Shown here piece by piece: positions 1,360 through 61,319 of a DNA stretch of 64,000 nucleotides. The position numbers were made by a program, and so were the translations under genes. Under the pieces are notes generated by a model. It worked only from the letters and a program-made list of their open reading frames with translations. It ran no database searches and was not told the origin of the DNA. This DNA is from Saccharopolyspora galaxeae (GTDB lineage: Bacteria; Actinomycetota; Actinomycetes; Mycobacteriales; Pseudonocardiaceae): assembly GCF_016526145.1 (NCBI RefSeq), contig NZ_JADDUE010000004.1:62001-126000 (forward strand), in the 5' to 3' direction. Position 1 is the first letter of the stretch. The number at the start of each line of letters is the position of its first letter.

Positions 1360-3100
1360 GATCGGCCTCCAAGTAGCGCTCGCGGCACAACCGGCGGGCG
1401 ACCTTGCCGCTCGACGTGCGCGGAACGGTGTCCGGTTCCACCAGCACGAGATCGCTGAGCAGCACACCGTGCTCGGCCGAGACCGCCGAGCGCACCGCAC
1501 TGGTGATCTCCGCGGGGTCGCGGTCGGACGCGGCGACGCGCCTGCCGTACTCGGCCACGACGACCAACCGCTCACCTTCGGCCGCGCTGATCGCGAAAGC
1601 GGCGGTGTGGTGCTTGCGCACCGCCGGGTGCGCCTGCTCCACGGTCAGCTCCACGTCCTGCGGGTAGTGGTTGCGGCCGTCGATGATGATCACGTCCTTC
1701 ATCCGGCCGGTGACGAACAGCTCGCCGCCGTCCAGCACACCGAGGTCGCCGGTGCGCAGCCAGCCGTCCGCGGGCAGCTCACCCGCGCCTACCGGTTCGG
1801 CGTCTGCCAGCTCGACGCCAAAGGTGTCCTGCTCGTCCCGGCCCCAGTAGCCCTGGCCGGTGTTCGGGCCGTGCACCCAGATCTCGCCCACGCCGCCGTC
1901 GGGCAGCACGGTGTGCGAGTCCGGGTCGACCACCGCGACCCGCTGTCCCACCGGGCGGCCGCAGGAGACCAGGTCGCTGACCGCCTCAGTCCCCTGCGGT
2001 GGTCGTGCTCGGCCCAGGGCGAGCTGCTCTCGGCTGAAACCGGCCACCCGCGGTTCGCTGCCCGAATCGGTCACCGAGACGAAAACCGTCGCCTCCGCCA
2101 AGCCGTACGAACAGCGGTGCGTCTCCGGGCGCAGACCGCAATCCGCGAACGCCTCGTTGAACCGGTGCAGCGTCTCCGGGCGCACCGGTTCGCTGCCGTT
2201 GATCAGTGAAACAACTTCGTCGAGCTGCAACCACGCCTTCTCCTCGTCGCTGACGCGCGCCGCGCAGAAGTCGTAGGCGAAGTTCGGTGCGGCGCTGATC
2301 GAACCCGGGTGGTCCGAGAGCAGCCGCAACCACCTGCCCGGACGCTGCAGGAACGCCACCGGGTCCATCAGCACCGACGGCAGGCCACCGACCAGCGGCG
2401 CGGCCACGGACAGCACCAGACCCATGTCGTGGAACAACGGCAACCAGCTCACCGAAACCGCACCCGGCTCGTTGCCGCCGTAGGCCCGCAGAGCCTGGTC
2501 CGCGTTGGCGAGCACGTTCGCGTGGGTCAGCTCCACACCGGCCGGGACACGGGTCGAGCCCGAGGTGTACTGCAGGTACGCCAGATCGTGCGGGCCCGTC
2601 GACGGTGGCCGGTACTCGTCCGCCAGCGTCGCGGGCAGCGTGTCGACGGCCGCGCAATGCCGCGGAGAACCGTCCCGGATCTGCTCCCGCACCTGATCGA
2701 ACGAGCTCTTGCCGGTCAACGCGCAGCTCGGCGCGCAACTGTCCAGCACCCGCGCCAGACGGTCGCCGTGGCCGGGCAGGTCCGGGGTGAACAGCGGCAC
2801 GGCGATCAGGCCCGCGTGCACCGCGCCGAGGAAACCGGTCACGTACTCCAGGCCCTGCGGAGCCATGATCGCCACCCGCTCACCCGGTTCGCAGCGCTGC
2901 TGCAGCCAGGCGGCGACGGTCCGCACGCGCTCGTGCAACTCGGCCCAGGACAGCGACCAGGCCACACCGTCCGGGCTGGCGTCGTGGTCGACGAAGGTGA
3001 CGGCGAGGTCCTCGCCCGCTTCGCGGGCCGCGGTCACCAGCGGGTCGGTGAGCAGTCGCGCCGGACGCTCGGCGAGCGGTTCGTCCGTGCTCGGCACCAT
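1352..3100 (-). CDS. Fatty acyl-AMP ligase (FadD32-like)
   Basis: This 582-residue adenylate-forming enzyme should activate a fatty acid as acyl-AMP and load it on the N-terminal ACP of the downstream synthase. Visible motifs are the core P-loop YTSGSTRVPAGV (residues 178-188), SWLPLFHDMGLVL, and the C-terminal GRMKDVIIIDGRNHYPQD hinge typical of FAALs. The start at 3100 is preferred because GGAGGG lies 7 bases before it; an in-frame ATG at 3115 would put that ribosome site inside the gene. FAALs differ from acyl-CoA ligases by an inserted segment that favours transfer to ACP instead of CoA; length and motifs fit this class, but the insertion itself was not aligned. The gene is the first of a probable two-gene operon transcribed away from the lipase at 3556. 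Confidence 0.93.
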   Translation of the reverse strand: MVPSTDEPLAERPARLLTDPLVTAAREAGEDLAVTFVDHDASPDGVAWSLSWAELHERVRTVAAWLQQRCEPGERVAIMAPQGLEYVTGFLGAVHAGLIAVPLFTPDLPGHGDRLARVLDSCAPSCALTGKSSFDQVREQIRDGSPRHCAAVDTLPATLADEYRPPSTGPHDLAYLQYTSGSTRVPAGVELTHANVLANADQALRAYGGNEPGAVSVSWLPLFHDMGLVLSVAAPLVGGLPSVLMDPVAFLQRPGRWLRLLSDHPGSISAAPNFAYDFCAARVSDEEKAWLQLDEVVSLINGSEPVRPETLHRFNEAFADCGLRPETHRCSYGLAEATVFVSVTDSGSEPRVAGFSREQLALGRARPPQGTEAVSDLVSCGRPVGQRVAVVDPDSHTVLPDGGVGEIWVHGPNTGQGYWGRDEQDTFGVELADAEPVGAGELPADGWLRTGDLGVLDGGELFVTGRMKDVIIIDGRNHYPQDVELTVEQAHPAVRKHHTAAFAISAAEGERLVVVAEYGRRVAASDRDPAEITSAVRSAVSAEHGVLLSDLVLVEPDTVPRTSSGKVARRLCRERYLEADHA

Positions 3101-3555
3101 GGGAACTCCCTCCACGCGAGCCCCGAGCGCAGCACGAGCACGACTCGTGGCTGATCGGGGCGGGAAGTGCCGGCGCGTCGGAGAATTGTCACCACTCGAC
3201 TACGCCGGCGAGCGGAGAAAAATTGTCACGGCGCGTTCGGGCATGTCAAGCGAGCCGCATCGGCAACGACGCTTCGCGCACCTAGTTGATCGCTTTTCCG
3301 GAGTTTTTTATCAGCACCGTGACAATCGCCGATGACATCGGTTGATCAGTCCGACACCTCTGGAAGGACCACCGGGCAAGTACGCTGAGCTGGCACTAAA
3401 GCTACTCCACCCGGAAAGCGCACGACATTCGATTCACTCGCACGGAGCATTGCCAAACGGTCCGCGATGTTCCATCTTCAGCATCCCGGACACGGCCGAA
3501 TGCCTGCCCGTAACCCGCTTTCCCCGGAAATCCTCGACTTTTTCCCGGAGCAGCA
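3101..3555. other. 455-bp divergent intergenic region
   Basis: This stretch separates the minus-strand acyl-AMP ligase from the plus-strand lipase and is clearly lower in GC than its surroundings, as expected for promoter DNA. No convincing gene was seen. It contains three copies of ATTGTCAC (listed separately). The lipase ribosome site GGAG lies 5 bases before its ATG at 3556. Confidence 0.7.
3185..3326. promoter_or_regulatory. Three copies of an ATTGTCAC motif, candidate operators
   Basis: ATTGTCAC occurs at 3185-3192, again as ATTGTCACGG at 3222-3231, and in inverse orientation as CCGTGACAAT at 3317-3326. The last two form a 10-bp perfect inverted repeat about 85 bp apart. All lie in the promoter region shared by the acyl-AMP ligase and the lipase. 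TTGTCA also resembles a -35 hexamer, so some copies could be promoter elements instead of operators. Confidence 0.4.
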
Positions 3556-34373: not shown

Positions 34374-34495
34374 GACATCTCCTCGGGTCACTCCGGACCC
34401 GCCAGCGTCCGTGCCAAGCCCGCGCTTGCCGGATCGCCGCACGCGACCGGCCAGGTCCTCACCCGGGGCACCCCACCGCGGTCGGAGGGTTGCCG

Positions 34496-34522
34496 GCCAG
34501 CAAACCGGGGTTTACCGCTGGC
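34496..34522. promoter_or_regulatory. Inverted repeat upstream of the class V aminotransferase
   Basis: GCCAGC plus AAACC (34496-34506) pairs with GGTTT (34509-34513) and, after a 3-nt bulge, GCTGGC (34517-34522). It lies in the 245-bp gap before the aminotransferase and could be an operator. The gap holds no gene. Confidence 0.25.
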
Positions 34523-34618
34523 ACTCATGACCTTCGATCAAGAGGTTAGAACACGCTGTTAGGTCCGCCGCCACCGGGTATCGGTGTGCGCGGCAGCCAG
34601 CTGGCAGCCCGCGGTACG

Positions 34619-38583: not shown

Positions 38584-38654
38584 CGGGGCTGCGCCCCGCC
38601 CGACGAAGGGTGCCCGCACGAACGGGCACCGGGGCGAAACCTCGCCCCGGTGCC
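38584..38654 (-). terminator. Overlapping, mutually exclusive hairpins between ftsZ and pgeF
   Basis: Three stems are present. GGCACCGGGGCGA (38625-38637) pairs with TCGCCCCGGTGCC (38642-38654) across a 4-nt loop: 13 perfect pairs. GGTGCCCG (38609-38616) pairs with CGGGCACC (38623-38630) and shares 38625-38630 with the first, so only one can form. CGGGGC/GCCCCG (38584-38598) forms a third. In ftsZ transcription the 13-bp stem comes first. It could terminate most ftsZ transcripts or work as an attenuator. Confidence 0.65.
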
Positions 38655-38680: not shown

Positions 38681-40126
38681 TCACCGCCGCATGAAGGGGG
38701 GAATGTCCACGTCGTCGTCGTTGTCGTCGGCGACCGGCATCGGGCGTTGCGGCAGCGAACCGCTCATGCCCTGGTTGCCGGTGTGCGTCGGGTAGCCGCC
38801 GCTGGACCGGGTCGGCACCGAGACGCTGGGCGCCGCGCCTTCCCCGTAGGCCGGCCGCTGCTGCTCCTGGCCGGGCCGCTGCTCGTAGTCCGGCGCGGAC
38901 GGCTGCTCGCCCTGGTCGCGGCCGACCGGTTCGCGGCGCTCGGGCTGCGGCTGCGGGGCCGACGGCGGTTGCGGGGCCGGTGCCGACTGCGCGGTGGGAG
39001 CCGGTTGCGCGGGGGCCGGTTGCGCAGGCGCCTGCTGCTCGACCGGCTGCGGCCGGGCGGGTGGGGCCTGCGCGCTCGGCGTCGACTCGCCGTCCACGAC
39101 CTGGCCCTCGGTCACCTGGGTTTCGCCGGCTTCGTCGGTGCCGCCGATCTGCTGCGGGTCGAGCTTCTTGTGCGTCGGCGCGCCCGCGTCGAACCCGGCG
39201 GCGATCACGGTCACCCGCACCTCGTCCCCGAGCGAGTCGTCGATCACCGTGCCGAAGATGATGTTGGCTTCGGGGTGCGCGGACTCCTGCACCAGCGAGG
39301 CCGACTCGTTGATCTCGAACAGGCCGAGGTCGGAACCACCCGAGATGGCCAGCAGCACGCCGTGCGCGCCCTCCATCGAGGCTTCCAGCAGCGGCGAGTT
39401 GATCGCCTTCTGCGCGGCCTGCACGGCTCTGCCCTCGCCACGGGCCGATCCGATCCCCATCAGCGCGCTGCCCGCGCCGGACATCACGCTCTTGACGTCG
39501 GCGAAGTCCAGGTTGATCAGCCCGGGCGTGGTGATCAGGTCGGTGATGCCCTGCACACCGGACAGCAGCACCTCGTCCGCGGAGCGGAACGCGTCCATCA
39601 GGCTGACCCCGATGTCGCCGAGCTGCAGCAGCCGGTCGTTCGGGATCACGATCAGCGTGTCGCAGCAGTCGCGGAGTTCCTTGATGCCCTCTTCGGCCTG
39701 GTTCGCGCGCCGCTTGCCCTCGAAGGAGAACGGGCGGGTGACCACGCCGATGGTCAGTGCGCCGAGCTTGCGGGCGACGTCGGCGATCACCGGCGCGCCG
39801 CCGGTACCGGTGCCGCCGCCTTCGCCGGCGGTCACGAACACCATGTCGGCGCCCTTGAGGACCTCTTCGATCTCGTCCTTGTGGTCCTCGGCCGCCTTGT
39901 GCCCGACCTCGGGGGCGGCGCCCGCGCCGAGGCCGCGGGTCATCTCGCGGCCGATGTCCAGCTTGACGTCGGCATCGGACATCAGCAGGGCCTGCGCGTC
40001 GGTGTTCACCGCGATGAACTCGACGCCTTTGAGCCCGACCTCGATCATGCGGTTGACGGCGTTGACGCCGCCGCCACCGATGCCGACGACCTTGATCACC
40101 GCGAGGTAGTTGTGCGGGGGCGTCAT
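38681..40126 (-). CDS. ftsZ: Cell division protein FtsZ
   Basis: This 481-residue tubulin homologue polymerises at the division site. The GTPase core begins [20 protein letters not shown], with the tubulin signature [13 protein letters not shown] and the T7 loop [13 protein letters not shown]. The C-terminal linker (about 150 residues, Pro/Gln-rich with [11 protein letters not shown] repeats) is unusually long, and the tail [12 protein letters not shown] is the SepF-binding peptide. ATG 40126 has GGAAGG upstream; longer readings run into the promoter. Unlike most actinobacteria, ftsQ does not precede it directly. Confidence 0.98.
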
Positions 40127-40702
40127 CGGGTCCGCCTTCCTGATCGTGGCTGAGCGCTCTGCGTTGCTCGGACCGCCGCGTGCGCGGTCACCGGGGGTAC
40201 CGGCCGACTGTCCGGCCGTTGCCGGGGTGTTCCCGTGCAAGCACAAGATCGAAACGCGGTCAACCCTGTACCGGGTGCGGACGTTAGGCATGTCGGCGCG
40301 GCCGCGTCCAGCAGCCACGCCGGAAGATCTCCCAGGAGTGTCCCCACGTCACAGCTCCGCCTCGACCGTCGTTCTCGCCTGCCCGTAATCACCTGCTCGC
40401 CTCCGCAGGCAGTGCCGCGCTCGTCCGCAGCCGTGCCTTCGTCCGCAGCCGGGCCTTCGTTCTTTGCAGCCGGGTCTTCTTTTTGCAGCTATGTCTTCGT
40501 TTTGCAGCTGCACCTTCGTTCGCAGCCGACGCGGTGATCCGCGCGTTACGCGATCACCGCGTCCACCGTACCGCGCGTCCGGCGGCGCAAGGCGGGGCAT
40601 TCGGCAAAGCGCTCGCGGTGAATCGCGACAGCAGATGTCCGGTTGGGGGTCAGGCTCACCGCGTCGGCCGTTCTGAGCGGCCGTTCGACAGGGAGGAAAC
40701 GC
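40127..40702. other. 576-bp divergent region upstream of ftsZ
   Basis: No gene is seen. It holds the ftsZ promoter on the minus strand (a TTGACC -35-like box at 40263-40258 is the best candidate), a T-rich array of six GCAGC-headed units at 40427-40531, and the start region of the SDR gene with GGGAGG at 40691-40696. Confidence 0.6.
40427..40531. repeat. T-rich tandem array, period about 19 bp
   Basis: Units beginning GCAGC start at 40427, 40445, 40466, 40485, 40504 and 40522 (spacings 18, 21, 19, 19, 18). Each continues with a variable triplet and then a CTTCGT/CTTCTT block and a T-run. It lies in the ftsZ upstream region and is far richer in T than its surroundings. It does not code for a convincing protein. 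Confidence 0.6.
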
Positions 40703-41611
40703 ATGGCTGGACCGCTGCAGGGCAAGGTGGCGCTGGTGGCCGGAGCGACGCGCGGCGCGGGCCGCGGCATCGCCGTCGAACTGGGCGCGGCGGGCGCGAC
40801 GGTTTACGGGACCGGGCGCACCACCCGCGAACAGCAGTCGGACTACGGACGGGCGGAGACCATTGAGGACACTGCACGGCTGGTCGACGCGGCGGGCGGC
40901 GAGGGCATCGCGGTCCGCGCCGACCACACGCAGCCGGACGAGGTGCGCGAGGTGGTCGCACGGATCGAAAGCGAACGCGGCAGGCTGGACCTGCTGGTCA
41001 ACGATCTGGGCGGCGAGCACCTGACGGACTGGCACAAGCCGGTCTGGGAGCACTCGCTGCGGATCGGGATCGACCGGCTCCGCGTCGGCATCGAAGCGCA
41101 CCTGATCACGAGCCATTTCGCGCTCGGGCTGCTGTCGCGCACACCCGGCGGCCTGGTCGTGGAGCTGACCGACGGCACGGCGGAGTACAACCGGCGCTAC
41201 CGCGGCGACCTGGGCGCGTTCTTCGACGTGGCGAAGACCGCCGCGAGCCGGATGGCGTTCGGGCTGGCCGAGGAGCTGCGCCCGCACGGCGGCACCGCGG
41301 TCGCGGTGACGCCGGGCTGGCTGCGTTCGGAGATGATGCTGGACCTGTTCGGCGTGACCGAGCAGAACTGGCGGGAGGCGACCGAGCCGCACTTCGGCAT
41401 CTCGGAGTCACCGCGGTTCGTCGGGCGGGCGGTCGCGGCGCTGGCCGCCGATCCCGAGGTTGCCCGGTGGTCCGGGCGGACGCTGTCCAGCGCGCAGTTG
41501 GCGCAGGTCTACGGACTCACCGATGTGGACGGTTCCCGGCCGGACTGCTGGCGCTACATCGAGGAGGTCGTCGAGGCGGGAAAGCCGGAGGACGTCACCG
41601 GCTACCGCTGA
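40703..41611 (+). CDS. SDR-family oxidoreductase lacking the usual catalytic tyrosine
   Basis: This 302-residue protein has the cofactor loop VAGATRGAGRGIAVELG and a YGTGRTTRE segment suited to NADP(H). In the active site the lysine is Lys178 (DVAKTA), but the residue four before it, normally Tyr, is Phe174 (GAFFDVAK). Tyr162 and Tyr166 lie nearby and might substitute. ATG 40703 has GGGAGG 6 bases upstream. It converges with the WYL regulator (17-bp overlap). Either the enzyme is inactive or it works with another residue. Confidence 0.87.
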   Translation: MAGPLQGKVALVAGATRGAGRGIAVELGAAGATVYGTGRTTREQQSDYGRAETIEDTARLVDAAGGEGIAVRADHTQPDEVREVVARIESERGRLDLLVNDLGGEHLTDWHKPVWEHSLRIGIDRLRVGIEAHLITSHFALGLLSRTPGGLVVELTDGTAEYNRRYRGDLGAFFDVAKTAASRMAFGLAEELRPHGGTAVAVTPGWLRSEMMLDLFGVTEQNWREATEPHFGISESPRFVGRAVAALAADPEVARWSGRTLSSAQLAQVYGLTDVDGSRPDCWRYIEEVVEAGKPEDVTGYR

Positions 41612-42587
41612 GCTGCGCGAGTTCGCCCGCCTCCGCGTAGAGCCCGGCAAACCTGGCCGCGGCGCGCGCCATCCGCCCCCGCAGTTCCGGCGGTGCCAGC
41701 ACCTCCACCTCGGGGCCGAGCGCGAGCAGCTGATCGTAGGCGACGTCCAGGGATTCGACGGGCAGCGTGGCCGTGACCAGCCCCTGCTCGTCGGTCTCGC
41801 CGTGCTCGGCGTGCTCCGCGGCGAAGCGGTCGAGGTGCACCGGCAAGGCGCGCACGCCTGCGGGCGTGAGCCGGACGGTGACGCTGTCGCGCAGCAGGCT
41901 GCGGGCGAAGTCCTCGCTGCGCCGCTGCCAGAATCCGGGCAGGTCGAAGGACTCGTCGCGGTCGAACGGCCCGGCGAGCTCGACGTGCTGGAACCGGTCG
42001 GCGCGGTAGACCAGGAACCGCTGCCCGACCCGGCAGGCGACGTACCAGGCGCCCGCTTTGAGCACCAGCCCGTGCGGCTCGACGTCGCGCCGGACCTCCC
42101 GGTCACCGCGCCGGTACACCGCTCGCACCGACCGGTCCTGCCAGACGGCTTCGGCGAGTTCGCCCAGCAGCGGCGGAGTTCCGCAGCGGCGGAACCAGCC
42201 GGGCGCGTCGAGGTGGAACCGCCTGCTGACCCGCTCCGGCGCGTCCTGGGCGCCCGGGGCGAGCGCCGCGGAGATCTTGCGGCGCGCGCTGGCGACCTCG
42301 CCGGTCAGGCCCATTTCGGCCGCCGGGCCGGGGATCGCGGCCAGCAGCAGCGCCTCGGCTTCGCCCCGGTGCAGCCCGGTCAGCCGGGTCCGGTAGCCGC
42401 CGAGCAGCCGGTAGCCGCCGTGCCTGCCGCGTTCGGCGTAGACCGGCACGCCCGCTTCGGCCAGTGCGAGCACGTCGCGGGCCACGGTGCGTTCGGAGAC
42501 CTCGAGTTCGCCCGCGAGGTCGGGGCCGGTCATGCTGCCGCGCGACTGCAGCAGCAGCACCAGCGAGATCAGTCTTGCCGCGCGCAT
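41595..42587 (-). CDS. WYL-domain transcriptional regulator (DeoR-type HTH)
   Basis: This 330-residue protein has an N-terminal helix-turn-helix (LISLVLLLQSRGSMTGPDLA, then LEVSERTVARDVLAL) and a wing (ERGRHGGYRLLGGY), then a WYL domain near residues 140-215 with VRAVYRRGDREVRRDVEPHGLVL and GAWYVACRVGQRFLVYRADR in two blocks. Such proteins sense nucleic acids or small ligands. It lies 52 bp downstream of the sugar ABC genes and is probably co-transcribed with them. Its stop overlaps the convergent SDR gene. Confidence 0.9.
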   Translation of the reverse strand: MRAARLISLVLLLQSRGSMTGPDLAGELEVSERTVARDVLALAEAGVPVYAERGRHGGYRLLGGYRTRLTGLHRGEAEALLLAAIPGPAAEMGLTGEVASARRKISAALAPGAQDAPERVSRRFHLDAPGWFRRCGTPPLLGELAEAVWQDRSVRAVYRRGDREVRRDVEPHGLVLKAGAWYVACRVGQRFLVYRADRFQHVELAGPFDRDESFDLPGFWQRRSEDFARSLLRDSVTVRLTPAGVRALPVHLDRFAAEHAEHGETDEQGLVTATLPVESLDVAYDQLLALGPEVEVLAPPELRGRMARAAARFAGLYAEAGELAQLSGSR

Positions 42588-42639
42588 GGCTCCCCCTTCC
42601 GACCGGCACGCTACGGGCGAGCCCCGACAGACCGACCGA

Positions 42640-43461
42640 TCAGCGCAGCCCGCTGGTCTTCAGTGACGAGATCAGCCAGCGCTGCCCGAGCAGGAACACC
42701 AGCACGGTCGGGATCGCGGCGAGCATCGCGGCGGCGATTACGTAGTGCTGCTTGGAGGCGTACTGCCCTTGCAGCGAGGCGATGCCGACCTGCACGACGG
42801 TCAGCGACTCGTCCTGCGCCACCGCCAGCGGCCACAGGAAGGAGTTCCAGTTGGCCAGGAAGAACAGCACGGCCAGCGCGGCCAGCATCGGCCTGCTCAG
42901 CGGCAGCACCACGTGCCAGTAGATCCGCCAGTGCCCGCAGCCGTCGAGGTGCGCGGCCTCCTCCAGCTCGCGCGGTACGCCGAGGTAGAACTGCCGCAGC
43001 AGGAAGATCCCGAACGCGTTGAACACCCCGGGCACGATCAGGCCCGCGTAGGAGTCGACCAGCCCGAGCGAGCGCACGATCAGGAACAGCGGCACCAGGA
43101 TCACCGGCAGCGAGACGAGCAGCGTCGCCACCACGGAGGCGAACGCCATGCCGCGCCCGCGGAAGCTCATCCTGGCCAGCGCGTAGGCCGCCATCGAGTG
43201 CGCGGCCAGCGCGAGCACCGTGACCGCGGTGGCGACGAACGCGCTGTTGGCCAGGTACCGCAGGAAGGGCACCTCGGTGAGCACGTAGACCACATTGGAC
43301 AGCGTCAGCGTGCTCGGCCAGCTCGTCGAGAACAGCTCCGACTCCGGGCGGAACGCCGCCAGGGCCAGCCACAGCAGCGGGGCCACCGTCAGCAGCGCCG
43401 CCAGGTACGCCAGCACCGCCTTCACCCGCGGCTTCGTCGCGCGAAGCGCCTTATTGGGCAT
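42640..43461 (-). CDS. Carbohydrate ABC transporter permease (MalG-type)
   Basis: This 273-residue CUT1 permease has six helices and the EAA loop ELEEAAHLDGCGHWRIYWHVVLPLSRP split over residues 178-205. The first helix is LAYLAALLTVAPLLWLALAAF; the C terminus is short. It overlaps the preceding permease gene by 11 bp. No ATPase gene follows, which is usual for actinobacterial sugar systems served by a shared MsiK-type ATPase. Confidence 0.93.
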   Translation of the reverse strand: MPNKALRATKPRVKAVLAYLAALLTVAPLLWLALAAFRPESELFSTSWPSTLTLSNVVYVLTEVPFLRYLANSAFVATAVTVLALAAHSMAAYALARMSFRGRGMAFASVVATLLVSLPVILVPLFLIVRSLGLVDSYAGLIVPGVFNAFGIFLLRQFYLGVPRELEEAAHLDGCGHWRIYWHVVLPLSRPMLAALAVLFFLANWNSFLWPLAVAQDESLTVVQVGIASLQGQYASKQHYVIAAAMLAAIPTVLVFLLGQRWLISSLKTSGLR

Positions 43462-44347
43462 CGAACCGCCCTCCCCTGGTCGCCGCGAACAGCCCGCCGG
43501 TGATCGCGGCCAGCACCAGCACCAGCAACCCGCAGATCGCCGCCGCGTAGCCGAACCGGCCGAACTGGAACGCCTGCTGGTAGGCGTAGTAGACGACGGT
43601 GGAGGTGGCGTTGGCAGGCCCGCCGGAGGTGGTGACGAAGACCAGGTCGAAGGCCTGCAGCCCGGTGACCGCGTTGACCGTCGAGGTGACCAGCACGAAA
43701 AAGCTCGTCGGCCGCAGCATCGGCCAGGTCACGTGCCGGAACCGGTGCCACGTCCCCGCACCGTCCACGGTGGCCGCGTCGTAGAGGTCGCGCGGGATGT
43801 CGTGCAGCCCGCCGAGGAAGATCAGCATCTGGTAGCCCATCAGGAACCACGCGCTGATCAGCACCAGCGTCAGCAGCGCCAGGTCCGGGTCGCCGAGCCA
43901 GGACACCCCGCCGAGGCCGAACACCGCCGAGAGCTTGCTCAGCAGCCCGGTCTTGTCGGTGAGCAGGAACTGCCACAGCAGCCCGACCACCACCAGGCTC
44001 ACCGCGTTCGGCAGGAACAGCGCGGCCCGCACCGCCCCCACCCCGGGGAAGTGGTCCCGCACCAGCAGCGCAAGGCCGAGCCCGAGCGCGAACGCCAGCG
44101 GCACGAACAGCACCGCGTACAGCGCCGTCACGCCGAAGCTGCGCCACAGCAGCCCGTCCCCGGCCATCAGCCGGAAGTTGTCCAGCCCGGCCCACTCCAC
44201 GTTGCCGAAACCGTCCACATCGAACAGTCCGACCACCAGCGCCAGCACCGCGGGGATCGCCACGAACACCAGCAGGCCGATGCCGTCCGGCGCCAGGAAC
44301 GCCAGCGCCGTGCGGCCTTCGCGGCGCCGAGTCCGCGGGGCCGTCAT
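43451..44347 (-). CDS. Carbohydrate ABC transporter permease (MalF-type)
   Basis: This 298-residue permease has helices from LLVFVAIPAVLALVVGLF to LLVLVLAAITGGLFA and the EAA motif DLYDAATVDGAGTWHRFRHV. ATG 44347 overlaps the binding-protein stop by 4 bp (ATGA), so the three genes are coupled. Together with the MalG-type partner it forms the membrane channel of a CUT1 importer for an unidentified sugar or glycoside. Confidence 0.93.
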   Translation of the reverse strand: MTAPRTRRREGRTALAFLAPDGIGLLVFVAIPAVLALVVGLFDVDGFGNVEWAGLDNFRLMAGDGLLWRSFGVTALYAVLFVPLAFALGLGLALLVRDHFPGVGAVRAALFLPNAVSLVVVGLLWQFLLTDKTGLLSKLSAVFGLGGVSWLGDPDLALLTLVLISAWFLMGYQMLIFLGGLHDIPRDLYDAATVDGAGTWHRFRHVTWPMLRPTSFFVLVTSTVNAVTGLQAFDLVFVTTSGGPANATSTVVYYAYQQAFQFGRFGYAAAICGLLVLVLAAITGGLFAATRGGRFDAQ

Positions 44348-45711
44348 TGGATCGCTGCCCCGTCGTAGGTGCCGAGGAACGTGTCGATCTGCTCGGCGGC
44401 GCCCGCCACCGCCTGCGCCGGGTCGGCGCCGTCGAGCTGGCAGGCCTGCAGCGCGTCGGAGATCGCGCGGTAGACCTCCGGCGGATAGCGCGGTTCCGGT
44501 CGCGCTTCGGTCATCACCTCGTCGGCGAACACCCGCAGCGGTCCGCTCTCGAACGCCCCGTGCCGGTCGGCGGCCCGGCGCACCGAGTACCGCGCGGGCA
44601 GGTTCGTCTTGGCCTCGGTGTTCCACCGCCGCACCCGGTCCACGCAGGCCGGGTCGGACGAGCCCAGCGCCCACACCACGAACTCCGCCGCCGCTTCCGG
44701 GTTGTTGCCCTGGGCGTTGGCGACCATCGCCCAGCTGCCCAGCGCGGTGGTGTAGGAACCGCCCTGCGGCACCGGCATCGGCGTCACGCCGTAGCGGAAG
44801 CCGGGCGCCTGCTCGGCGATTTCGGCGATGCCCCAGATCCCGAGCTGCTGCATCGCGCAGTAGCCGTCCGCGAGGTTGGAGATCGAGTCGTTGCCGCCCT
44901 CACCCCGCACTCGGCGCGGAGCGGAACCGGCGCGCACGGCGTCCTGCCACCACTGCAACGCGCGGTGCGTGGCGGGTGAGTCCAGCGAGCAGCGGCGCTG
45001 GTCCGGGGTGAACACCTCGCCGCCCGCCATCCACATGCACTGGTACCAGGTGTAGTTCTGGTAGTAGCCGGGATTGGTCTCGAACAGCATCCCGAACCGC
45101 TCCGGCGTGGTCAGCCGTTCCGCCAGCGCGAGCAGGTCGTCCCAGGTGCGCGGCAGGTCCCCTTCGGACAGGTGCGCCTGCTCGAAGGCTTGCTCGCCGT
45201 AGAACAGGGCGAGCGGTTCGATCTCCATCGGCAGCCCGTACACCCGGTCGTCGACGACCCTGGTGGACAGCCCCTGCGGCAGGAAGTCCTCCCGCATCCC
45301 CGGTTCCAGGTGCGGGGTGAGGTCGGCGAGCGCGCCGCCGTTGTAGTAGCGCAGGAAGTCGCCGGGGCTGAGCAGGAACACGTCCGGTCCGGCGCCCGCG
45401 CTGAACGAGGTCTGCAGCGTCGGCCCGGACTTGTAGTCCTTGTTCGGCACGTACCGCAGGCGGACCTGCACGTCGTGGGTGGCGTTCCACTCCGCGGCCA
45501 GCTGCACGACCCAGTCGCTCTGGCTCTTGGTCTGCCCGCCCGGACCGTAGAAGTTCCAGAAGTTGATCTCGTTCGGAGTGCGCGCCGGTGCGCAGCCCGC
45601 CGCGGCGCCCGCGAGCACGGTCGCGCCGGCTCCGCGCAGCACGGCGCGGCGGCTGATCCCGGTGGTCCTGCTGATTTCGGTGGTTCTGCTGATCCCGTAG
45701 GCATCGCCCAT
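44344..45711 (-). CDS. Sugar-binding lipoprotein of a CUT1 ABC transporter
   Basis: This 455-residue protein starts at ATG 45711. A repeated N-terminal stretch (ISRTTEISRTTG) precedes a twin-arginine motif SRRAVLRG, a hydrophobic segment GATVLAGAAAG and a lipobox ending in AAGC, so it is probably exported by Tat and lipidated by Lgt/LspA. The mature part shows INFWNFYGPGG, DVFLLSPGDFLRYY, LPRTWDDLLALAERL and YCAMQQLGIWGI of the MalE-like family. The ligand is not predictable. A sigma-70-like promoter and a LacI-type palindrome lie just upstream. Confidence 0.9.
   Translation of the reverse strand: MGDAYGISRTTEISRTTGISRRAVLRGAGATVLAGAAAGCAPARTPNEINFWNFYGPGGQTKSQSDWVVQLAAEWNATHDVQVRLRYVPNKDYKSGPTLQTSFSAGAGPDVFLLSPGDFLRYYNGGALADLTPHLEPGMREDFLPQGLSTRVVDDRVYGLPMEIEPLALFYGEQAFEQAHLSEGDLPRTWDDLLALAERLTTPERFGMLFETNPGYYQNYTWYQCMWMAGGEVFTPDQRRCSLDSPATHRALQWWQDAVRAGSAPRRVRGEGGNDSISNLADGYCAMQQLGIWGIAEIAEQAPGFRYGVTPMPVPQGGSYTTALGSWAMVANAQGNNPEAAAEFVVWALGSSDPACVDRVRRWNTEAKTNLPARYSVRRAADRHGAFESGPLRVFADEVMTEARPEPRYPPEVYRAISDALQACQLDGADPAQAVAGAAEQIDTFLGTYDGAAIQ
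45658..45693 (-). repeat. Two 18-bp tandem units in the signal region of the binding protein
   Basis: Units 45658-45675 and 45676-45693 differ at four positions and encode ISRTTE and ISRTTG, just before the Tat motif. The duplication lengthens the cytoplasmic n-region of the signal peptide. Confidence 0.6.
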
Positions 45712-45722
45712 CCAGCACCCCC

Positions 45723-45768
45723 AGAAAACGATTGCTGAACGGTAGTCCGAGGCGTGGATCACGGTCAA
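45723..45768 (-). promoter_or_regulatory. Promoter and LacI-type operator of the sugar ABC operon
   Basis: On the minus strand TTGACC (45768-45763) and TACCGT (45744-45739) are 18 bp apart and fit a -35/-10 pair. Directly after the -10, over the expected start point, lies the imperfect palindrome AGCAATCGTTTTCT (45736-45723; 10 of 14 positions symmetric) with the central CG of LacI-family operators. No LacI gene is in the window. Confidence 0.5.
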
Positions 45769-45854
45769 TGCGCTGTTCGGGCCACGGCGCGGGCAGCGCG
45801 GGCGCCCGGTTCCCGCGGCGGCCGCGGCCACCTGCGAGATCAACTAGCGGGAGC

Positions 45855-46586
45855 TCAAGCCACCGTGGGCAGCGCCGGGCTCGTGACGTCGTAGATCCGG
45901 CCGGGCCGTCCCAGCAGCGGCGGCAGGATCCCGGCCTTGCGCGCAGCCTGCTCGTCGTCGCCCCAATGGACCTGGCGGTTCCCGGTCAGCACCAGGCTCA
46001 GGTCCTGCGGCCGCTGCGCGGACACAGCCTGGACCTGACCGCGCAGGTCGGGCGGCAGCGCGGTGAGCGCGTCCAGCGCCGCTCGCATACCTGCCGGGCG
46101 GTCGGCGCCGAGGCGCAGTTCCGGCAGACCGGGCGGCGGCTTCGGCGCGCTGCGGAACGCCACCCCGGCCGCGTCCACCAGCCGCATCCCGCCCGGCTCG
46201 GCCAGGTAGGCCACCGCGTGCCGCTCGGTCACCTGCAGCGCCACCGTCGACGGCCATTCCAGCCGGACCTGCACGGAAGCGATCTGCTGCAGTCCGCCCA
46301 GCCGGGCGCGGACCTCGTCGGCGTCGACGCGCATCATCGGCTGCCCGAGTTCGACCGCGGCGGTGTCCAGCACCGCCTGCTCCGGGGTCGCGGTGAGCCC
46401 GTCGACGCGCACCGAACGCACCCCGAGCAGCGGGGTGAAGTACAGCGCCAGCACCACGACGGTGATCACCGCCAGCCCCAGCGGCAGGATCCACCGGCGC
46501 GGCGGGCGCGGACGAGCCGCCCGCACCGGGCGGCCGCGGGTGCTGCGCGCACCCGGCCGGTTCGCCGCGCGCCCGGCGGGGCTCAC
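45855..46586 (-). CDS. ftsQ: Cell division protein FtsQ
   Basis: This 243-residue protein has a basic cytoplasmic tail, one membrane helix (WILPLGLAVITVVVLALYF) and a POTRA domain starting VRSVRVDGLTATPEQAVLDTAAV, followed by LEWPSTVALQVTERHAVAYL. It belongs to the FtsQLB complex that regulates septal wall synthesis. GTG 46586 overlaps the murC stop by 4 bp. It is the last gene of the mur block and is separated from ftsZ by the sugar-transport cassette. Confidence 0.93.
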   Translation of the reverse strand: MSPAGRAANRPGARSTRGRPVRAARPRPPRRWILPLGLAVITVVVLALYFTPLLGVRSVRVDGLTATPEQAVLDTAAVELGQPMMRVDADEVRARLGGLQQIASVQVRLEWPSTVALQVTERHAVAYLAEPGGMRLVDAAGVAFRSAPKPPPGLPELRLGADRPAGMRAALDALTALPPDLRGQVQAVSAQRPQDLSLVLTGNRQVHWGDDEQAARKAGILPPLLGRPGRIYDVTSPALPTVA

Positions 46587-53500: not shown

Positions 53501-54975
53501 GCGGCACCCCCGGTCAGCGCCTCGGCGACCTGCCACAGCGCGGCCACTTTGGACGCCTTGGCCAGCACGACGTCACCGGGACGCAGCTCGTCGCGCAGCA
53601 GCGCGACGGCGGCATCGACGTCCGGCACCAGAACCGACTCCTCTCCCCACGACCCTTCCAGCGACGCACCCTGGTGCATCGCGCGCGCCTGGTCACCGAC
53701 GACCACGAGGCGGTCGATGTTGAGCCGGACGGCCAGCCGCCCGATCTCGTCGTGCGCGGCGACCCCGGACTCGCCGAGTTCGCCCATCACCCCGAGCACC
53801 GCCCAGGCGCGGCCGGGTTTTCCCCTGGTCATCGACGCGAGCGTTTTCAGCGCCGCGCGCACCGACTCCGGGTTGGCGTTGTAGGCGTCGTTGACGACGG
53901 TGACGCCGCCGGAGGTCTCGGCGACCTCCATCCGCCGCGCGGACACGCGCCGCACCGAACCGAGCCGTTCGGCGGTCTCGGCGAGCGTCGCGCCGAGTTC
54001 CAGCGAGATCGCGGCGGCGGTCAGCGCGTTGCCGACGTGGTGCTCGCCGTGCAGCGGCAGACTCACCCGCGCCGAGCCTTCGGCGGTGACCAGCGTGAAC
54101 GTGGGCCGCGCCCGCTCGTCGAGCTCGACGTCCTCGGCGCGGACTTGCGCCTTCGGGCTCTCGCCGACGAAGACCACGCGAGCCGCGGTCCGCTCGGCCA
54201 TCGCGGCCACCAGCGGGTCGTCGGCGTTGAGCACCGCGACTCCGCCGTCGGCAGCCGCGGGCAGCGCCGCGACGAGTTCGCCCTTGGCCTGCGCGATGGC
54301 TTCCGGCGAGCCGAATTCGCCGAGGTGCGCGCTGCCGACGTTGAGCACCGCACCGATCCGCGGCGGCGCCACCTCGCACAGCGCGGCGATGTGGCCGACG
54401 CCGCGCGCGGACAGCTCCAGCACGAGGTGCCTGGTGTGCTCGTCGGCGCGCAGCACCGTCCACGGGTGGCCGAGTTCGTTGTTGAACGAGCCGGGCGGCG
54501 CCACGGTCGGCCCGGCCGGTTCCAGCACCTGCGCGATGAGGTCCTTCGTGGAGGTCTTGCCGGACGATCCGGTCACCCCCACCACGGCCAGCTCCGGCAG
54601 CCGGTCCACCACGTGCCGGGCCAGCCGCGCCAGCCCGGCCAGCACCGCGGCACCGCTGCCGTCGGCGTCGCCCGCCAGCGCCATCGCGCGGGACGGGTGG
54701 TGCGCGGGCAGCTCAGGAACGATCACCGACGGGATCGGCGCGTCCGCTGTGGACACTTCGCGGGCGGCGAGCACCCCGGCGGCGCCGTCCGCGACGGCTC
54801 CGGCGGCGTAGTCGTGCCCGTCGACGCGTTCACCGGGCATCGCCACGAACAACCCGCCGGGGCCGATCTGCCGGGAGTCGAACTCGACGGGGCCGGTGAC
54901 GGTTTCGGTGCCGTCCGCGTGGTGGAGCCTGCCGCCGACCGCTCGCGCGATGTCAGCGAGGCTGAGCGGGATCAC
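53497..54975 (-). CDS. murF: UDP-MurNAc-tripeptide--D-alanyl-D-alanine ligase
   Basis: This 492-residue ligase adds the D-Ala-D-Ala dipeptide. It has [12 protein letters not shown] at the N terminus, [21 protein letters not shown] (ATP loop), [50 protein letters not shown] and [14 protein letters not shown] 54975 overlaps the murE stop by 4 bp. It is co-transcribed with murE and mraY. Confidence 0.97.
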
Positions 54976-56651
54976 CTTGCCTCCTCGTTGCTGCCCCGGC
55001 CTCCGGCCGGGGACGTGGGCTCCCCCAGATTTCCTTGCGCGGCTTGAAGTTCGTGCGCCGGCCTGCGCCGCAGCGCCGCGGCGACCTCGTCGCGGTCGGA
55101 GAACGGGTGCACCACCCCCGCGATCTCCTGCCCCGTCTCGTGGCCCTTGCCCGCGATCACGACCACGTCCCCGGTGCGCGCCCGCGACACCGCCTCGCCG
55201 ATGGCTTCGCGGCGATCGCCGACCTCGCGGACCTCGCCGCGTTCGCCCGCGGGCACTTCCAGCGCACCGGCGAACATGGCGGCGCGGATGTCGGCGGGGT
55301 CTTCGCTGCGCGGGTTGTCGTCGGTGACGATCAGCAGGTCGCTGCGGCGCGCGGCGGCCTCGCCCATCAGCGGCCGTTTGGCGATGTCCCGGTCGCCGCC
55401 GCAGCCGAGCACGACCAGCACGCGGGACTCGCCGGCCTGCGCGCGGGCGGCGTCGAGCACCGCGGCGACCGCGCCCGGTTTGTGCGAGTAGTCCACGACG
55501 GCGGTGAAGTCCTGGCCGAGCGCGACGCGCTCCATCCGGCCGGGAACGTCCACTTCGGCCAGTCCGCGCTCGACGGCCGCCGCCGGGACCCCGGCGGCGC
55601 GCAGCACTCCGGCGGCCAGCAGCGCGTTGGCCACGTTGAACGGGCCGGGCAGCCGCAGCCGCACCGCCAGGTCGCCGTCCGGGCCGTGCGCGGTGAAGCG
55701 CTGCTCACCGGTCGGAAACGCCTGCACCGGGCCGGGCGTCCAGGAGGCGTCGCCCGCGGTGGAGACGGTCGTGGTGTCCGCGGTGACCAGCCGGCGCCCC
55801 CACTCGGTGTCCACGCACACCACTTCGCGTTCCGAGCGGCCGTCGAACAGCAGCGCCTTGGCCTGGAAGTAGTCCTCCAGGTCGCGGTGGAAGTCCAGGT
55901 GGTCCTGGGACAGGTTGGTGAACGCGCCGACCGCGAACCGGGTGCCGCCGACGCGGCCGAGCGCGAGCGCGTGGCTGGAAACCTCCATCGGCACGTGCGT
56001 CACGCCGTGCTCGACCATCACCGCCAGCAGCGCCTGCAGGTCCGGGGCCTCCGGAGTGGTGAACGCGCTTTCCAGGCGCTCCCCCGCGATGCGGGTTTCC
56101 ACCGTGCCGACCAGGCCGGTGGTGTGCCCGGCCGCGCGCAGCGCGGACTCCAGCAGGTAGCAGGTGGTGGTCTTGCCGGAAGTGCCGGTGACGCCGAGGA
56201 CGGCGAGCTTGCCGGACGGGTCGCCGTAGATGCGGGCGGCAGCGGCACCGAGCACGTCGCGCGGATCGTCGTGCACCAGCAGCGCGACCTCGCCGGAACG
56301 CACCCGCGGGTCGTCGAGCAGCGCGACCCGGTCGATCCCGGCCTGGTCGGTGAGCACCGCGGCGGCACCCGCGCTCAGCGCTTCGCCCGCGAAGTCGGCG
56401 CCGTGCACCCGGGTGCCCGGGAGCGCGGCGAACAGATCGCCGTCGAGCACGTGCTGCGCCCGCAGCGTCGCACCGGTCACGACCCCCGCGCCGGGGGAAT
56501 GACCAGGAACGTCGATGACCCGCGCACCGATGTTCTCGGCGAGCTGCTGGATCCGCACCGGCTCGACGTGAGCGGGTCGAGGCGGGGCTGTCGCGACCGC
56601 GGAAGGCACGTCGCGCAAGGCTACCGGTACCACTTGACGGGTCATGCTCAT
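54972..56651 (-). CDS. murE: UDP-MurNAc-L-Ala-D-Glu--meso-diaminopimelate ligase
   Basis: This 559-residue ligase adds the third stem residue. The ATP loop is LGVTGTSGKTTTCYLL; FTNLSQDHLDFHRD and VDYSHKPGAVAAVLDAAR follow; the DNPRSEDP motif shows meso-diaminopimelate specificity. ATG 56651 (or 56645) starts MSMTRQVVPV; no clear ribosome site precedes it. It is the first gene after a 750-bp gap with a terminator, so it must have its own promoter. Confidence 0.95.
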   Translation of the reverse strand: MSMTRQVVPVALRDVPSAVATAPPRPAHVEPVRIQQLAENIGARVIDVPGHSPGAGVVTGATLRAQHVLDGDLFAALPGTRVHGADFAGEALSAGAAAVLTDQAGIDRVALLDDPRVRSGEVALLVHDDPRDVLGAAAARIYGDPSGKLAVLGVTGTSGKTTTCYLLESALRAAGHTTGLVGTVETRIAGERLESAFTTPEAPDLQALLAVMVEHGVTHVPMEVSSHALALGRVGGTRFAVGAFTNLSQDHLDFHRDLEDYFQAKALLFDGRSEREVVCVDTEWGRRLVTADTTTVSTAGDASWTPGPVQAFPTGEQRFTAHGPDGDLAVRLRLPGPFNVANALLAAGVLRAAGVPAAAVERGLAEVDVPGRMERVALGQDFTAVVDYSHKPGAVAAVLDAARAQAGESRVLVVLGCGGDRDIAKRPLMGEAAARRSDLLIVTDDNPRSEDPADIRAAMFAGALEVPAGERGEVREVGDRREAIGEAVSRARTGDVVVIAGKGHETGQEIAGVVHPFSDRDEVAAALRRRPAHELQAAQGNLGEPTSPAGGRGSNEEAR

Positions 56652-57201
56652 GGTCGGCTGTGCGCGCCGGGTACTCGCCCGCTGACGCGACCGGGACCAC
56701 TCGGTCGTTTTCGCGCGGCGCCGCGCAGGGGCCGCCGGAAGCGCCGCCCGCAATTCGCCGAAAACGCGGCGGAATCCCGCTCCGCGAATCGCCGCATCGC
56801 GGCCGTTGTCCGAACTCGGGCAGAAACCGCGAACAACGATTCCGACCTCCCGCATTCCTGAACGATCGGCGACACCGCCGATTCGGTGATATTCGATAAC
56901 TGCGTTCTGGAGCGGGTCGCGAACCGTCGCTCACACCACCGCCCGCGGACCGGCGCCGAGCAAGTTTCACCAGCTCATCGCCATGATCCAAAAACATCGG
57001 AGAACTGCGGTAATCCGCCGCTCAACCGCCCGAATATCCGGCGCCGCGCCCAATGTCGGCGGCAAGTGCTCTGAAGGGGTCACACACGTTCGGCAGAAAG
57101 CCGATGCCACCCCGTGGCCGGCCAGGCGAGGACCCGACGTACGGCCGGGGCCGTCCGTGCGAAGTTGTTGGTCCGTCTCGTGCAATTTTGTGGTGCCGCG
57201 G

Positions 57202-57342
57202 GTGCCCATTCGCTTAGCGTTGCATCCCGTCAGGTCGACGGTTCCGCTGGTTTTCGGGGAGGGCTCGTGGGAGCACGACCCGCGAGGTGCGCCGCGCTGC
57301 ACCGCCCGCACCGGCGGGACCGTCCTGCCCCGCCTGACGTGA
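57202..57342 (+). CDS. Candidate 46-residue protein opposite to the dcw genes
   Basis: From GTG 57202 (GTGs at 57190 and 57193 are also in frame) the frame reads MPIRLALHPVRSTVPLVFGE, then GSWEHDPRGAPRCTARTGG and TVLPRLT. Composition is protein-like and third positions are mostly G/C after the first 20 codons. The stop lies 3 bp before the strong hairpin at 57346. There is no clear ribosome site, and no family is recognised. It may be a chance frame. Confidence 0.3.
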   Translation: MPIRLALHPVRSTVPLVFGEGSWEHDPRGAPRCTARTGGTVLPRLT

Positions 57343-57345
57343 GCC

Positions 57346-57378
57346 GTGCACGGGCCGTGGCGCGAACGGCCCGTGCAC
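57346..57378. terminator. Strong hairpin after ftsI
   Basis: Arms GTGCACGGGCCGT (57346-57358) and ACGGCCCGTGCAC (57366-57378) are a perfect 13-bp match with a 7-nt loop. It lies 23 bp after the ftsI stop on the minus strand and directly after the candidate plus-strand gene, so it may act in both directions. It splits the dcw cluster into two transcription units. Confidence 0.75.
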
Positions 57379-57401
57379 GCGCTGGAACCGCGAGCACGCC
57401 G

Positions 57402-59258
57402 TTAGTGGACCTGCAAGGTCTGCACCGGCGCGGGTTCCGGGGAGAGCGGGATCTGGTAGCGCTGCGCGAGGTACGCGGCGATGTCGTGGAACAACGGAGC
57501 AGCCGAATCCGAGTCCGGCAGGCCCTTCTTCGGCGCGTCCAGCATCAGCCCGACCACGAACCGCGGATCGTCCGCGGGCATGATCCCCGCGAAGGTGATC
57601 CAGTTCGAGGACTGGCTGTAGCAGTTGCACGCCGGGTTGACCTGCTGCGCGGTACCGGTCTTGCCGGAGATCTGGAACCCCTCCAGCGCCGCGTCCTTGC
57701 CGGTGCCCTGCTGCTTCGGCGCGCCCTGCACCACGCCGCGCAACATGTCCTTCACCGTGTGCGCGGTCTGCGGGCTGACCACCCGCACCCCGTCCGGGGG
57801 CGGCTTTTCCACCCGCGTGCCGTCCGGGCGCACCTCCGAGGAGATGATCCGCGGCGGCACCCGCACCCCGTCGTTGGCGATGGTCTGGTACATCCCGGCC
57901 ATCTGCAGCACCGTCATCGAAAGGCCCTGCCCGATCGGCAGGTTCGCGAACGTGCTGCCGGACCATTCCTCCCGCGGCGGCACCGTGCCCCCGCTCTCGC
58001 CGGGCAGGCCGATGCCGGTGGGCTGGCCAAGGCCGAACTTGCGCACCAGCTCGTTGAACCGGTCCGGCCCGAGTTCCTGCGCGGTCATCAGCGTGCCCAC
58101 GTTGGACGACTTGCCGAGCACGCCGGTGAAGGTCAGCGGGATCGTGCCGTGCGACCAGGCGTCCCCGACGGTGCGGTCCGCGACCTTGATCGAACCCGGC
58201 ACCTGCATGACCGTCTCCGGGCGCTTGATCCCGTGCTCGATCGCCCCGGCCGCGGTGATCACCTTGTTCACCGAACCCGGTTCGAAGGGCGTGGTCACGG
58301 CCGGGTTGCCGAGCCCGTCCGGGCCCCACTTCGGCGAGTTCGGGTCGAACGACTTGTCGTTGGCCAGCGCGTACACCTCACCGGTGTGCGCGTCGAGCAC
58401 CACCGCGCTGGCGCTGCGCGCCTGGGTCTTGCGCGCGTACTTGGTCAGCTTGTCCTGGACCATGTACTGCACGTCGGAGTCCAGCGTCAGCCCGACGTCG
58501 GAGCCGGGCACGGCCGATTGGACCTGCCGCTCGGTGCCGGGGATGACCAGGTCGCTGCCCATCGCGGTGTCCGAGACCTTCTTGCCGTCGGTGCCCGCGA
58601 GCAGCTTGTCCAGCGAGCCCTCCAGCCCGATCCTGCCCAGCACCTTGCCCGCGTCCTCGCTCCACCGCGCACCGCCGAGCACCGCCGAACCGGTGTCGCC
58701 CGCCGGGTATTCGCGGGTGGCGCGGTACTCGGCGCCGATCTGCGAGTACTTCTCGGTGATCAGGCGCGCGGCGCCGGGGTCGATCACCGGCCCGATCTTG
58801 ACGTAGCTGGAGTCGCTGAACAGCGCCTCGGTGATCTGCCGCTCGTCGACCCGGTCGCCGAGCACCTGGTGGATGTAGCGGGCGACCTCGTGCTTGTACT
58901 GCTCGGCGGTCGGTTCCGCCGGGTTCTTCGCGTGTTCCTCGTTCTGGTCCTCGGTGAGCTTGTTCGGCGTCGCGTACAGCTGCCTGGCTTCGCTGCTGAA
59001 CGCCAGCACGTTGCCGCTGCGGTCGGTGATCGAACCGCGTTCGGCGGGGATCGCCGAGACGGTGTGGCGCTGCTTGGCGGCGTCCGCGGACAGCTGCTGC
59101 GCCTGCAAGCCCTGGACCTGGACCAGCTTCCCCCCGGTGAGCACCAGCGCCAGCACCAGCAGCAGGCGGCCGATCTTCAACCGCCGCGCGCTGCCGGCCA
59201 CGTCGGTGCGCGCGGTCCGCCGGCTCCCCCCGGCGGGCCGCGTCCCCCTGCGGACCAT
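57402..59258 (-). CDS. ftsI: Septal transpeptidase FtsI (class B penicillin-binding protein)
   Basis: This 618-residue class B PBP has a basic cytoplasmic tail, one helix (IGRLLLVLALVLTGGKLVQ), a dimerisation domain with RGSITDRSGNVLAFS, and a transpeptidase domain with the active Ser in FEPGSVNKV (SxxK), KSSNVGT (SxN) and SGKTGTAQQ (KTG). Two Cys near the C terminus (PACNCYSQ) are unusual but seen in actinobacterial PBPs. ATG 59258 overlaps the ftsL stop by one base (TGATG). It should crosslink septal peptidoglycan with FtsW. Confidence 0.95.
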   Translation of the reverse strand: MVRRGTRPAGGSRRTARTDVAGSARRLKIGRLLLVLALVLTGGKLVQVQGLQAQQLSADAAKQRHTVSAIPAERGSITDRSGNVLAFSSEARQLYATPNKLTEDQNEEHAKNPAEPTAEQYKHEVARYIHQVLGDRVDERQITEALFSDSSYVKIGPVIDPGAARLITEKYSQIGAEYRATREYPAGDTGSAVLGGARWSEDAGKVLGRIGLEGSLDKLLAGTDGKKVSDTAMGSDLVIPGTERQVQSAVPGSDVGLTLDSDVQYMVQDKLTKYARKTQARSASAVVLDAHTGEVYALANDKSFDPNSPKWGPDGLGNPAVTTPFEPGSVNKVITAAGAIEHGIKRPETVMQVPGSIKVADRTVGDAWSHGTIPLTFTGVLGKSSNVGTLMTAQELGPDRFNELVRKFGLGQPTGIGLPGESGGTVPPREEWSGSTFANLPIGQGLSMTVLQMAGMYQTIANDGVRVPPRIISSEVRPDGTRVEKPPPDGVRVVSPQTAHTVKDMLRGVVQGAPKQQGTGKDAALEGFQISGKTGTAQQVNPACNCYSQSSNWITFAGIMPADDPRFVVGLMLDAPKKGLPDSDSAAPLFHDIAAYLAQRYQIPLSPEPAPVQTLQVH

Positions 59259-61092: not shown

Positions 61093-61254
61093 TGCGGTCC
61101 CTCCCTCCCGCATACCTGGTCCGCGCCACCGCCCCTGCGGCGGCGGCAGGCTCGTCCACCTGCACAGCTGTCTCACCAACGCGGCGCCGCAGCGGCCTCG
61201 CGGAAGTTCCCGCCCGGCGGCACCGATCACGCCTGGTCCCAGCCCGCCCGTGCC

Positions 61255-61282
61255 TCCTGGTGCCGGGGAAGGTGCACCAGGA
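61255..61282 (-). terminator. Hairpin between mraZ and rsmH
   Basis: TCCTGGTGC (61255-61263) pairs perfectly with GCACCAGGA (61274-61282) across a 10-nt loop. It lies in the 227-bp gap between mraZ and rsmH, 38 bp after the mraZ stop. It could attenuate transcription from the mraZ promoter. Confidence 0.4.
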
Positions 61283-61319
61283 CGCCGAGGCGGACCGAGG
61301 CCGGACGCCACCGGTCCCG

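Follow-up and report, generated by a model that had tools for sequence, protein, structure and literature searches.

The 750-bp gap between ftsI and murE in Saccharopolyspora galaxeae is probably the border of two transcription units of the dcw cluster, tolerant of insertion and breakage and carrying a conserved, hairpin-ended element on its murE side. The first unit would run from mraW to ftsI and the second through murE-murF-mraY-murD-ftsW-murG-murC-ftsQ, with murE at its head expressed from its own predicted promoter within the gap. Such a joint would tolerate insertions and breaks because nothing needs reading through it, and it has taken different gene blocks in different genera, among them an EACC1-like/caspase-FtsK pair in four sister species. 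Read in the plus-strand direction, the hairpin is the conserved end of an element that lies upstream of murE, and it is most likely a transcription terminator or insulator; because it lies 22 nt behind ftsI in this species, it probably also ends the ftsI transcript. Confidence in this reading was lowered slightly because other stretches of the cluster were found to have opened too. The features of the 64,000-nt stretch of DNA that was analysed (the window) are listed in Table 1.

Table 1. Features of the window discussed in the text
Feature	Position	Strand	Remarks
ftsI (pbpB)	57402-59258	-	Pfam Transpeptidase and PBP_dimer; final gene of the mraW-ftsI block upstream
murE	54972-56651	-	heads the downstream dcw block; starts at the conserved ATG
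ftsI-murE joint	56652-57401		site of inserted genes or of cluster breakage in relatives; any separate murE promoter would lie here
Perfect hairpin, 35 nt	57345-57379		14-bp arms, 7-nt loop; 22 nt past the ftsI stop
Conserved element ending in the hairpin	57135-57379	+	nhmmer 157 bits in the window; five-species alignment; candidate plus-strand RNA or murE regulatory region
Invariant 17-mer TGGTCCGTCTCGTGCAA	57169-57185	+	identical in 5/5 species; inside the element
Invariant TTAGCGTT	57214-57221	+	five-species alignment; contains TANNNT
46-residue frame	57202-57342	+	GTG start; not conserved, probably not a gene
ftsQ	45855-46586		5.7 kb from ftsZ; interval between them 40127-45854
ftsZ	38681-40126
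Solute-binding protein gene	44344-45843		between ftsQ and ftsZ

The gap between ftsI and murE

The start of murE was most likely the ATG at 56651, where the coding pattern stops: GC by codon position was 0.79/0.53/0.91 in the body of murE and 0.71/0.69/0.75 in the open extension upstream of it (56652-56855). The N-terminal sequence MSMTRQ was common to all five species aligned. Since the coding pattern ended at this ATG and the start was shared by the five species, the 750-bp gap reported in the initial annotation is real. The genus was represented by six genomes in the collection, one of which (G060) belonged to the species of the window, hence four other species (G001-G004). The same gap was present in G060, with 3 mismatches in the 781 bases compared.

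A simple scan of the gap recognised neither a promoter nor a terminator with a U-tract, and no consensus promoter was present in the window stretch. In positions 2500-3500 of the congener locus L029 there was likewise no consensus promoter, and one terminator-like site was seen at 3396-3408 (0.3 expected). No Rfam family matched positions 56400-57500 of the window up to an E-value of 1. At the gathering threshold, two matches were obtained in the window, both outside the gap: a SAM-IV riboswitch (34417-34532, minus strand, 107.7 bits) and an mraW RNA motif just upstream of mraW (61226-61310, minus strand), the latter at 51.7 bits barely over its cut-off of 50.

The hairpin and its flanking element

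The hairpin behind ftsI had been described as perfect with 13-bp arms; position and perfection were confirmed, and the arms are 14 bp. No other perfect 14-bp hairpin with a loop of 3-8 nt occurred in the window, and none in 25 dinucleotide shuffles. With the same loop sizes, two perfect hairpins of at least 12 bp were found versus a shuffle mean of 0.12, and three of at least 10 bp versus 1.92, the latter being at chance level. A perfect 13-bp hairpin with a 4-nt loop, possibly a terminator, was also present behind ftsZ (38625-38654). The 81 nt around the ftsI-proximal hairpin had a folding energy of -41.9 kcal/mol (z -2.2), matched by 5 of 200 shuffles, as expected for the stem-loop of an intrinsic terminator. 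No U-run followed it on either strand. Terminators without a U-tract are used by actinomycetes.

In all four congeners the hairpin was 94-97% identical, with a loop that was the same but for one base. Two stem positions varied among species, and both stayed paired (G-U) in the plus-strand RNA but became C-A in the minus-strand RNA, a pattern that weakly suggests transcription of the plus strand. In the congeners a gene pair separated the hairpin from ftsI, at a distance of 4.7-5.1 kb; the hairpin lay 104-151 nt upstream of a small EACC1-like gene and preceded the murE ATG by 674-750 nt. The 3' region of ftsI in these species was its own and unconserved. Arms and loop were near-invariant in these two different gene contexts. 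The earlier assignment of the hairpin as the terminator of ftsI was not upheld by its retention at such a distance in all four congeners, and fits only by position in the species of the window.

Within its own genome the hairpin was single-copy; besides the hairpin itself, the search gave only one weak match, of 38 bases, which concerned a different part of the query. In a DNA search of 60 relatives, matches at E-values up to 0.01 were obtained in 44 genomes, including the four congeners; those outside the genus were short (best E 9e-6) and were taken for GC-rich chance matches, except for the hairpin core in G014. This genome of another genus, on a contig other than that of its ftsI (L013:1493-1531), carried a 16-bp hairpin in which the loop and the inner 8 bp were the same and the outer arms differed; the core may therefore not be restricted to the genus.

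The hairpin terminated a longer conserved element, 245 nt in the window and about 310 nt in the congeners. Element and hairpin were kept in all five species of the genus although the neighbouring gene differs. Outside the genus, the best nhmmer score in loci L001-L149 was only 8.1 bits. Over the 483 nt between the element and murE, alignment with the window was poor, except just before the murE start. The TANNNT within TTAGCGTT is taken by us to be a possible plus-strand -10 box. Consensus folding (alifold) of the element with its hairpin gave z-scores of -2.8 for the plus and -2.4 for the minus strand relative to shuffled alignments; with the hairpin removed, the five sequences folded no better than shuffled alignments (z -1.1 and +0.3, respectively).

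Alternative readings of the hairpin and element

Were the hairpin merely an intrinsic terminator serving ftsI, in a gap that is otherwise neutral spacer, its place close behind the ftsI stop would be explained, and the other three perfect hairpins of at least 10 bp in the window also lay outside predicted genes. This reading is unlikely, given that the four congeners keep the sequence far from ftsI, which there has its own 3' region, and that conservation extends over some 200 nt next to the hairpin. The ending of the conserved element at the hairpin, the G-U pairing on the plus strand only and the plus-strand folding energy would suit a small RNA gene with the hairpin as its terminator, possibly acting on dcw transcripts. 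However, the pairing comprised only two G-U events, the minus strand with the hairpin folded almost as well as the plus strand, whose score fell on removal of the hairpin, and neither an Rfam match nor a promoter was recognised. A plus-strand RNA at the gap is possible, and a small RNA gene of this kind is less likely than not. It is rather improbable that the palindrome is active as DNA, as a protein-binding operator or chromosome-organising site. The near-invariance of arms and loop in two gene contexts and the related hairpin elsewhere in G014 would agree with such a site, but the palindrome was single-copy in its own genome and the G-U pattern is a better fit to RNA.

A short protein encoded on the plus strand is very unlikely. 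The 46-residue frame had been proposed as a possible small gene ending 3 bp before the hairpin; the frame exists, and its end lies 2 nt before the 14-bp stem. By tblastn of loci L001-L149 and the window (L150-L169 being outside this set) at E-values up to 0.01, it was matched in the same species only, the next best match having an E-value of 0.017, and it was rejected as a gene. The observation in favour of a protein was a frame of 42 residues with a GTG start, preceded by purine-rich sequence, that stopped just before the hairpin in G002, G003 and G004. This frame was absent from the window and broken in G001, where a G run in the element (L029:3007-3316) was, as sequenced, one base shorter than in G002-G004. 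Its changed codons were mostly nonsynonymous (4/5, 9/10 and 8/10 in three pairs), and it was rejected too. In the five-species alignment, no frame in the element was conserved.

The ftsI-murE joint across the family

The best ftsI and murE matches were collected from 120 genomes of the family (probably Pseudonocardiaceae), of which G015 (neither gene) and G123 (no murE match at threshold) were dropped. For the remaining 118, the distance, taken from match to match, which may add as much as about 280 nt of coding sequence from murE, was below 800 bp in 54, 0.8-2 kb in 7 and 2-10 kb in 22, and the two genes were not adjacent in 35. The joint was thus widened or broken in 64 of the 118. These are counts of genomes, which within a family are not independent, and not of events on a tree; two of the genomes belonged to the species of the window. 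The non-adjacent pairs were far apart on one contig in 10 genomes and on different contigs in 25, some of which perhaps reflect assembly gaps. By genus, the joint was short in every sampled genome for 18 of 45.

Other joints of the cluster served as controls. The murE-murF and murF-mraY distances were below 800 bp in 118/118 and 119/119 genomes, respectively. The mraW and ftsI matches were on one contig within 2.4 kb in 118/119 (1.7-2.4 kb in five of these), and murE and murC on one contig within 10.2 kb in 117/118 (median 6.6 kb, with three at 9.0-10.2 kb). Ten genomes with a split cluster were fetched, and murE, murF, mraY, murD and ftsW were together in all of them. About 9 kb behind ftsI contained no match to the other searched dcw proteins in nine; in the tenth (G010), the stretch reached the contig end.

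Among 57 named loci, mostly from mycobacteria, the joint was below 800 bp in 47 and 1.3-8.7 kb in 9, and murE was not found in L094. In six named Actinokineospora loci (L099, L101, L102, L103, L106 and L137) the best mraW match ended 2.0-5.5 kb before ftsI, so that this stretch had opened too. Between ftsQ and ftsZ, which were compared in 21 loci (20 fetched plus the window), 12 loci had 0.3-1.8 kb, and in the other 9 (from genera g1, g13, g14, g26 and g58) the distance exceeded 5 kb or ftsZ was not matched within the stretch. Insertions also occur outside the ftsI-murE and ftsQ-ftsZ joints.

Genes found at the joint

All 29 wide loci were fetched together with two further congeners, and the joint contained at least one gene, predicted from open frames and third-position GC only, in 30 of these 31. 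A perfect hairpin of at least 9 bp within 150 bp behind ftsI was present in 9/31 wide loci versus 0/13 short ones. From the 94 predicted proteins, 30 from outside g1 (the genus of the four congeners) and the 8 from g1 were scanned, and the cargo varied by genus. In g1 it was the EACC1-like/caspase-FtsK pair. Genus g8 had a GHL15 protein, to which two of four genomes added a protein of 1626-1681 residues; the one scanned (1681 residues, L034:2262-7307) matched NACHT N-terminal helical, WD40, Ras and TIR domains. A dehydratase and a transporter were found in g13 and g26; a transporter, a GGDEF protein and an oxidase in g20; and a hydrolase, a DUF6880 protein and a rhomboid protein in g32. The PPE, EspG and ceramidase-like proteins of g57 (L054 and L055) are reminiscent of M. 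tuberculosis, which has a PE_PGRS gene at the corresponding position. Among the other genera, those nearest by FtsI match (g14, g13 and g26) had other genes at the joint, or a short joint. Genes that by their domains resemble conflict systems were found at the joint in two genera.

In the four congeners, the antiparallel pair sits between ftsI and murE on the opposite strand. The large protein (1386-1392 residues) carried an N-terminal caspase domain, with Peptidase_C14 above its cut-off in all four, and four FtsK/SpoIIIE stretches. The small protein, of 121 residues (about 125 in G004 if the first ATG is the start), matched EACC1 weakly, scoring 24.0 bits in G002, 22.0 in G001 and 21.7 in G003 against the Pfam cut-off of 23.6; G004 gave no match at an E-value of 0.01. 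In a defence library, the caspase-FtsK protein P0004 matched the PADLOC mad8, SspH and caspase models, and the small protein matched none. The pair was absent from the window species and G060. In a search at E-values up to 1e-20, the matches to P0004 in these two genomes lay at other places and covered no more than its FtsK-type parts (from residue 536). A relict of the block in the gap was considered, and no scar was recognised. FtsI identity was 77-78% between the window and the four congeners and 87-98% among the four; because this sets the window apart, gain of the pair in the ancestor of the four appears to be the simpler history, the alternative being loss in the window lineage.

Comparison with known systems

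In the accessible part of its description (PMC7159879), the EACC1 two-gene conflict system has a small 5' gene followed by a caspase-domain gene. The congener block has the same order, a small gene with a weak EACC1 match and then a gene with an N-terminal caspase domain. It differs in that the rest of the large protein consists of FtsK/SpoIIIE stretches, and in that the pair is absent from the window.

For M. bovis BCG, the accessible part of a transcript study (PMC3605390) gives no RT-PCR product across Rv2159c-murE, ftsQ-ftsZ or PE_PGRS38-Rv2161c. It also describes murE as heading its transcript in this organism and the region before murE as driving a reporter in M. smegmatis. As RT-PCR gave no product across either joint, both interrupted joints of the window cluster correspond, by analogy, to transcript borders reported for M. 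bovis BCG. The initial annotation had the cluster divided and murE served by a separate promoter. A division here, with murE heading its own unit, is supported by the family comparison and, in mycobacteria, by these RT-PCR and reporter results; it is probable for the present organism, and the promoter in its gap is a predicted one. In the murE-headed dcw operon of M. bovis BCG and M. tuberculosis, PE_PGRS38 and Rv2161c-Rv2159c precede murE, likewise an insertion at the joint. The inserted genes differ, however, there is an extra transcript border inside them (PE_PGRS38-Rv2161c), and the accessible part of that report (PMC3605390) mentions no conserved hairpin element.

A terminator-ended RNA in a dcw upstream region is also known from Rhodobacter sphaeroides, where, according to the accessible part of the report (PMC5089854), UpsM is produced in sense orientation from the leader before mraZ, in Rhodobacteraceae. 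The candidate RNA described here would instead lie upstream of murE, in antisense orientation to the cluster. For bacteria at large, dcw gene order is treated in a paper (PMC8871954) whose accessible part does not mention the ftsI-murE joint, and among the matches listed from the open literature, no title or abstract opening dealt with recurrent insertion at ftsI-murE in actinomycetes.

Significance

A wider proposal, which we regard as doubtful in its full extent, is that the dcw cluster of the family consists of blocks whose joints, ftsI/murE and ftsQ/ftsZ, would be transcript borders and so recurrent landing sites for new genes, conflict systems included, and that in this genus the ftsI/murE joint would carry a plus-strand RNA, hitherto undescribed, which ends in a hairpin of unusual conservation and insulates or controls the murE unit.

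As a gap, the ftsI-murE stretch is ordinary; it is of moderate interest in that genes have been inserted there repeatedly although the cluster is essential. Conservation of gene order has a textbook example in the dcw cluster. The contrast between a joint so often widened or broken and the murE-murF and murF-mraY joints, which were close in all genomes where both genes were found, points to where selection for co-transcription may or may not act. The testable rule suggested is that insertions prefer transcript borders, and with conflict-like genes at the joint in two genera, the ftsI-murE joint would be a place to look for more.
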